Shown here one piece after another: positions 15,366 to 17,254 of a DNA stretch of 55,292 nucleotides. A model generated the notes under the pieces. It made no database searches and was not told the origin of the DNA. It worked only from the letters and a program-made list of their open reading frames with translations. The position numbers and the translations under genes were made by a program. Every line of letters starts with the position of its first letter. Position 1 is the stretch's first letter. Source of the DNA: Nitrospirota bacterium (lineage in GTDB: Bacteria > Nitrospirota > Nitrospiria > Nitrospirales > Nitrospiraceae); contig JACQQM010000110.1 in NCBI GenBank assembly GCA_016207025.1, forward strand, positions 1 to 55,292. Direction: 5' to 3'.

Positions 15366-15865
15366 GTCACTTCATCGCCTTGCTTGACCACTCCCTCGGC
15401 AAGTACCCGCGCATACAGTCGGCTCCAGCCGGGATGCCGTTTCTGGGAGATCCGCTTGTAATCCCCGTTGAGAAACCAACCGGCGTTGTTTTCGCACGGG
15501 GAGGTATAGCTCACGATTTCTAATTGCACCGACTTCCCCACGCGCACCCGGTCCCCTGGTTTGAGCGTGGTCCACTCCACCCCCGCCAGGGTCAGGTTCT
15601 CTCCGCTGGAACCAGGGGCGATCTGATGCCCTTCGGTGCGGAGCGCCTCGATCACTTCCAGGGAGAAGAGGCACACCGCGCGATCGGGTCCGCCGTGATT
15701 CTTCAGGCTCCGCTGGCGATCCCCGACCACGCCATCCTTCATGATGCGAGCTTCCGGCACCGGCAGTTTTGGCACGCCGCCGTTCGAGACGTTGATCTGG
15801 TGCAGGTGCGGATATGACGGATATGATCGAAGTGCCACGTGCTCCATTACGAGGACCCTTCGCAC
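15356..15865 (-). CDS. MOSC domain protein
   Basis: 'HQINVSNGGVPKLPV...GDRQRSLKNHGGPDRAVCLFSLE...GSSGENLTLAGVEW...CENNAGWF'. Confidence 0.85.
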   Translation of the reverse strand: MRRVLVMEHVALRSYPSYPHLHQINVSNGGVPKLPVPEARIMKDGVVGDRQRSLKNHGGPDRAVCLFSLEVIEALRTEGHQIAPGSSGENLTLAGVEWTTLKPGDRVRVGKSVQLEIVSYTSPCENNAGWFLNGDYKRISQKRHPGWSRLYARVLAEGVVKQGDEVTIL

Positions 15866-16725
15866 GGTTCAGGGACAATGACCTCAAGCGCCAGCCAGCC
15901 GTCACGCTCCCGCGAGGCGCGCACGACCCCACCCACCTCCAGGAACGCATCCGAGATGTCCGCCCGGCTTTCCGTGAGCATGCCCGAGAGCAACAGCCTG
16001 GCGCCGAGGTTGAGGTAGGGTGCAAATTCGTGAATCGAATCCAGGATGGTCTGCCGGTCCAGATTCGCCAGCACGATATCAAACCGCTCATTCTCTGTGG
16101 CCTGAAGATCCCGAAGCGTGGCGATTCGAAGCTCCAGTGCCGGGCCGAGTCCGTTTGCAGCCGCGTACTTCCGCGCGCACCCGATCGCGACCGGATCATG
16201 GTCAATCCCTATCACGGCCTTGGCCCCCAGCCGGAGGGCCACCATGGCCAGGATGCCGCTGCCGGTACAGACATCCAGCACCTGCTCGCCCCCTCGGATC
16301 AACTCTTCGAGCCATTCGATCAGCAACTGGGCGGCGGCATGATGGCCGGTCCCGAATGCCTGCGTGGGGTCAATAATGAGTTCTATCTCTCCCGGTTGTA
16401 ACTCTACATGCTCCCAGCTCGGTCTGACGATGATGCGCCGGCCGATCTTGAGCGGTTTGACCGACCGCGCCCAGAGCGCGTTGCAATCTCGTTCGGGAAG
16501 CATGTCAACGGTGATAGCCGGTCGATCCGATTCATTCCCCAGCTCCCTCAGCACTTGTTTCAGATCCTGCAGGGCATCCGGGTTCCACCGGTCGGCCGGC
16601 CAGTACAGATGTATGACGCCATTCTCCTGCCAGGCGCCGGTCGCGGCCGGATCGCTCAATATGCCGAGTAGCTCCCCTGAGTCTACGGAGGACTCGATCC
16701 GCACGTCGATCCAATCGTGTGCCAT
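15847..16725 (-). CDS. prmA: ribosomal protein L11 methyltransferase
   Basis: 'PTQAFGTGHHAAAQLLIEWLEEL...VLDVCTGSGILAMVALRLGAKAVIGIDHDPVAI...IVLANLDRQTI'; start likely Met10 (16725) because the 16752 ATG lies in a repeat end. Confidence 0.88.
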   Translation of the reverse strand: MAHDWIDVRIESSVDSGELLGILSDPAATGAWQENGVIHLYWPADRWNPDALQDLKQVLRELGNESDRPAITVDMLPERDCNALWARSVKPLKIGRRIIVRPSWEHVELQPGEIELIIDPTQAFGTGHHAAAQLLIEWLEELIRGGEQVLDVCTGSGILAMVALRLGAKAVIGIDHDPVAIGCARKYAAANGLGPALELRIATLRDLQATENERFDIVLANLDRQTILDSIHEFAPYLNLGARLLLSGMLTESRADISDAFLEVGGVVRASRERDGWLALEVIVPEPCEGSS

Positions 16726-16743
16726 TGCGGTTGCCAACACGCT

Positions 16744-16935
16744 AACCCGCATTATTCACGAAGCGTGAACAATGCGCCCTACGGGCTTCGACTGCGGCCC
16801 CATCGGAACAGGGCCTCCGCTCAGGGTTAGCCCTGAGCAGGTGCGAAGCACCGTGTCGAAGTCTGCCAGCAAGCAAGGGGCTTGCTGGCAGACGGTTATG
16901 AATGAAAGCGAAAGCTTTCATGAATAATCCGGGCT
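16744..16935. repeat. MITE/REP-like palindromic element, ~192 bp
   Basis: Imperfect terminal inverted repeats aacccgcattattcacgaa / ttcatgaataatccgggct (16/19 pairing), plus internal hairpins: perfect 14-bp stem gtctgccagcaagc-aaggg-gcttgctggcagac at 16861-16893, ctcaggg/ccctgag at 16820-16837, atgaaagc-gaaa-gctttcat at 16902-16921. Confidence 0.7.
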
Positions 16936-17254
16936 AAGGGGCAGGTAAGTTCATATGCGAAAAGTTCGCCACCAAGCAGTACGGACAAGGGCCTAGCGGC
17001 ACGGTATCTTAACAGGCTGGAATGGCCGATGCATCCGTACCGGCTAGGCTCCCGGTCGACACGACCCGCAACAAGTCAAAGGGATAGATTGTGTCGTTGT
17101 CTTTGCAACATCGAAGACAATCGTGCAAGTCGGCAGCCGTTGTGTCAGGGCATAGCCTGTTACTTGACAGGCAGAGAGTGGACTGCTAGTTTTCTCGCAG
17201 AGGATAGTACCCGCACAAGGGTCATCAGACCGACCCGAGCCAGGAGGTAGGACC

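Follow-up and report, generated by a model that had tools for sequence, protein, structure and literature searches.

We found that a short, hairpin-rich feature next to prmA in a Nitrospirota genome is very probably a non-autonomous transposable element (MITE), whose ends would be recognized by IS1380-family DDE transposases. The analysed DNA is a contig of 55,292 nucleotides, referred to as the window. We put the probability of this reading, for an IS1380 subgroup with ends CCCGSATTATTCAYGA and a 4-bp YTAR target, at about 0.9. The likely mobilizer of the MITE belongs to the IS1380 family. A widespread repeat in raw Nitrospirota DNA is thereby tied to a likely transposase family, and its mobility becomes testable.

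Ends, target duplications and copies of the element

The element is directly bracketed by CTAA/CTAA, a perfect 4-bp target duplication, and its terminal inverted repeats are 17 bp each (Table 1). The end motif matched twice in the window and 0 times in 100 shuffles. A preliminary description of this DNA had proposed a MITE/REP-like element with inverted ends, a perfect 14-bp stem and no transposase inside. The ends were found where it placed them and agree at 16/19 positions when flanking bases are counted, the stem was recovered at 16861-16874 / 16880-16893, and the ORF list of the window contains no ORF of at least 80 aa within the 188 bp. The element also lies at the claimed place, but the proposed limits (16744-16935) were too wide and include 2 bp of each CTAA copy. 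Terminal inverted repeats, a target duplication, a short length without a transposase gene and multiple dispersed copies are all present, and an IS1380 transposase family carries the same ends. The term MITE-like is therefore upheld.

Table 1. Positions of the element, its parts and the neighboring prmA features in the window
Feature	Position	Strand	Basis
MITE, 188 bp, IS1380-type ends, transposase gene absent	16746..16933		ends, copies, target duplications
Target-site duplication, left copy, CTAA, 4 bp	16742..16745		sequence and YTAR duplications in other copies
Target-site duplication, right copy, CTAA, 4 bp	16934..16937		sequence
Left terminal inverted repeat, CCCGCATTATTCACGAA	16746..16762		matches IS1380-family element ends
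Right terminal inverted repeat, TTCATGAATAATCCGGG	16917..16933		motif search and end comparison
Left subterminal hairpin, end repeat pairing with inner inverted copy	16749..16775		fold and alignment
Multibranched module, closed by TTCGAC/GTCGAA	16787..16860		fold and alignment
Central hairpin, perfect 14-bp stem	16861..16893		sequence and covariation
Right subterminal hairpin	16895..16928		fold and alignment
prmA coding region from relative-supported start (MAHDW..)	15847..16725	-	relatives' starts
Upstream ATG from MITE end, not conserved	16750..16752	-	sequence and relatives

Target-site duplications, whose presence had been suggested as a check, were also found outside the window. Among 41 copies picked regardless of their flanks (33 from G012, a relative with a complete genome, and 8 from the host), 21 had identical 4-bp flanks, 0 of which extended to 5 bp, and about half of the 41 had imperfect flanks. 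When flank partners were permuted in 5000 trials, identical flanks averaged 9.6 and never exceeded 17, compared with the 21 observed. For full-length copies with an interior like that of the window's element, the 4-bp flanks were identical in 11/12. The target consensus is YTAR, 4 bp long. Asymmetric targets (TTAG, CTAA) in the 41-copy set were direct in 7 cases and palindromic in 0, and a model in which TTAG...CTAA is part of a palindrome was discarded on this count.

The copy-number check revealed a multi-copy element rather than a single-copy sequence without homologs. In the host draft (G000, 2.47 Mb and 85% complete), the end motif matches 23 times at up to 2 mismatches, against 0 for a reversed-pattern control. 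Most of these matches pair into elements 177-205 bp long, among which two or more further interior types occur. G012 holds 201 matches at up to 3 mismatches (control, 1). The interior type of the window is present full-length at 91% in another genus (G016), at a different locus and with its own CTAG/CTAG, while more diverged copies occur in G014, G010, G019 and G004. In a cross-phylum scan, the exact 21-mer TTCATGAATAATCCGGGCTAA occurred in at least 117 stretches, from Nitrospirota, Planctomycetota, Acidobacteriota, Armatimonadota, Myxococcota, Desulfobacterota, Bacteroidota and others.

Bacterial MITEs in general (reviewed in PMC10969869; e.g., MITEAba12, PMC6382973) are likewise short and ORF-less, with terminal inverted repeats, target duplications and many copies, whereas the family described here is linked to the ends of IS1380 and occurs across many phyla. 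IS1380 goes unmentioned in the text of that review. Among the papers covered by searches on the end sequence, on MITEs in Nitrospira and on IS1380 with MITEs, we met no description of the MITE family.

Compact 26-bp palindromes, CCCGGATTATTCATGAATAATCCGGG, occur in L087, L101, L107, L171 and others, and look as though both ends overlap by 8 bp. Additional interior modules in L341, L343, L344 and L345, e.g., CCCTTCGATAAACTCAGGGCCCTGAG..., are apparently nested palindromic repeats. A common stretch of ~45 bp (GGCGCACGGCGCG..GAATAAA..) lies in or near many elements (L173, L174, L075, L034, L275) and looks like a separate short repeat. One MITE with the family ends (L175:802-1043) sits on a contig that IMG/VR classes as viral.

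Interior fold and stop-codon targets

The interior architecture is common to copies that are just 67-91% identical. In the central hairpin, both sides have changed in 10/13 aligned pairs among relatives. A common fold of eight aligned interiors has 20/63 pairs changed on both sides with pairing kept, compared with a mean of 10.5 in shuffles and at most 8 with a sliding partner, in a structure derived from the very alignment tested. The minus-strand RNA fold of the element has z = -12, and an Rfam search with the element returned just a sub-threshold chance match.

The interior might be a functional structured RNA of the MITE, might act as its single-strand DNA signal, or might have been co-opted by prmA, any of which would add to the MITE reading. 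The double-changed pairs and the architecture kept among diverged copies favor such a function. However, replication-dependent copy correction of imperfect palindromes would yield similar covariation, and the eight sequences supplied both the structure and its test, so that we consider a functional interior possible but doubtful.

We also examined whether the target holds the stop codon that ends an ORF of at least 150 codons, using elements with a YTAA/YTAG flank and sufficient adjoining sequence. This was the case in 12/24 elements of the host and its relatives (2-3 in the two other frames) and in 20/59 elements of the cross-phylum scan, where the search pattern required CTAA at one end (6-7 in the other frames). 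The background for YTAR sites is 7-8% per strand, so about 15% for one side or the other. The window's own copy is not among such cases. The excess may reflect target choice or the survival of harmless insertions. Where the target overlaps the stop codon of a gene, the duplication would leave that gene whole.

A broader reading, in which selection keeps the specific folded interior of a cross-phylum, IS1380-dependent MITE family and its copies insert by preference at the stop codons of genes, is tentative, and the chances are against it. If true, target duplication would re-create stop codons and let MITE copies spread without gene breakage.

IS1380 elements as likely mobilizers

IS1380 candidates were sought by a PF13701 profile search of genomes carrying the MITE ends. 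An Armatimonadota MAG contig (L194) encodes an IS1380 transposase (PF13701, E 6e-144) between CCCGGATTATTCATGAA and TTGTGAATAATCCGGG, in an element of 1665 bp with the same ends as the MITE; its duplication is unreadable because the left end of the element is the contig end. Nitrospirota IS1380 elements (L244, L246, L247, L248) have MITE-like ends and CTAG/CTAG. The ends of L246 are CCCGCATTATTCATGAA / CCCGGATTATTCACGAA, and those of the other three differ by a few bases. ISBdi2 and ISSp1, annotated IS1380 elements on plasmids, have related ends and a CTAG duplication.

These IS1380 elements resemble the MITE in an end that begins CCCG..TTATTC and in the 4-bp CTAG/YTAR duplication. They differ from it in encoding the PF13701 transposase and in a length of about 1.6-1.7 kb; complete elements with MITE ends from Nitrospirota and Armatimonadota measure about 1.65-1.70 kb. 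Homology to the MITE is confined to the ends, and its interior is unrelated. In the 85% complete host draft, no IS1380 with MITE ends was found. The single IS1380 found there (G000:C9) is without them, so mobility in this host would require an unassembled or lost partner.

IS5 likewise has a 4-bp YTAR target. Mobilization of the MITE by another DDE family with this target, such as IS5, is nevertheless improbable, since the MITE ends match those around IS1380 transposases, and no IS5-family element with such ends was met in searches directed at the ends and at IS1380.

An origin as REP/REPIN-type palindromes, with a Y1 (RAYT) transposase as mobilizer, is very unlikely. REP, BIME and REPIN sequences share with the MITE its hairpins, extragenic position and repetitiveness, and the compact palindromes of some genomes fit them as well, but the terminal inverted repeats and the 4-bp duplications of the target contradict this origin, and DDE IS1380 elements carry identical ends. 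A REP is a single extragenic palindrome, RAYT-linked and without target duplication, and duplications are present here. REP-like is thus the less fitting half of the preliminary label.

IS110-family transposases (DEDD_Tnp_IS110 and Transposase_20) lie near the middle of a MITE in two Nitrospirota genomes (L075:831-2183 and L172:1447-2790). As they stand between two MITE ends, they were considered as the autonomous partner and rejected, because the alignment shows IS110 inserted mid-MITE. From these insertions, targeting of the repeat by IS110 is possible.

Probable insertion upstream of prmA

MITE ends near prmA were absent in 29/29 relatives with prmA examined. In relatives, prmA begins MxxxW, and this start corresponds to window position 16725, leaving 16 bp up to the left target duplication. 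As the preliminary description had noted, the left end of the MITE does contain the upstream ATG that opens the 301-aa prmA ORF (CAT on the plus strand). The description's suggestion that the insertion may have reshaped the prmA 5' region stands as to position, just before the conserved start. The ATG inside the element is not that start. Gene callers can be misled by a start codon within a repeat end, as in the case of prmA. A role for the element as a prmA riboswitch or conserved regulatory leader, to which the directly upstream position, the strong fold and the covariation among copies might point, is hardly tenable, since the element is missing at prmA in all of these relatives, its copies sit at unrelated loci and Rfam gives no family at a meaningful score.

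We infer for the MITE that a transposase of the IS1380 subgroup, acting in trans, put the 188-bp element into a CTAA target lying 16 bp before the start codon of prmA, where the empty site would have read ...CCAACACGCTAAGGGGCAGG... The inserted element would now part prmA from its earlier upstream sequence, and any leader transcribed through it would gain a very stable predicted fold, about -114 kcal/mol. Given the z of this fold, a regulatory effect of the MITE on prmA is a possible candidate. The MITE probably does prmA no service, and it probably persists because the prmA coding region was left intact.

Further upstream, window positions 16996-17033 resemble a stretch, read as coding from its sequence, of the gene that divergently adjoins prmA in L308, L309, L314 and L329. 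This gene-like remnant indicates that the region has also lost a gene.
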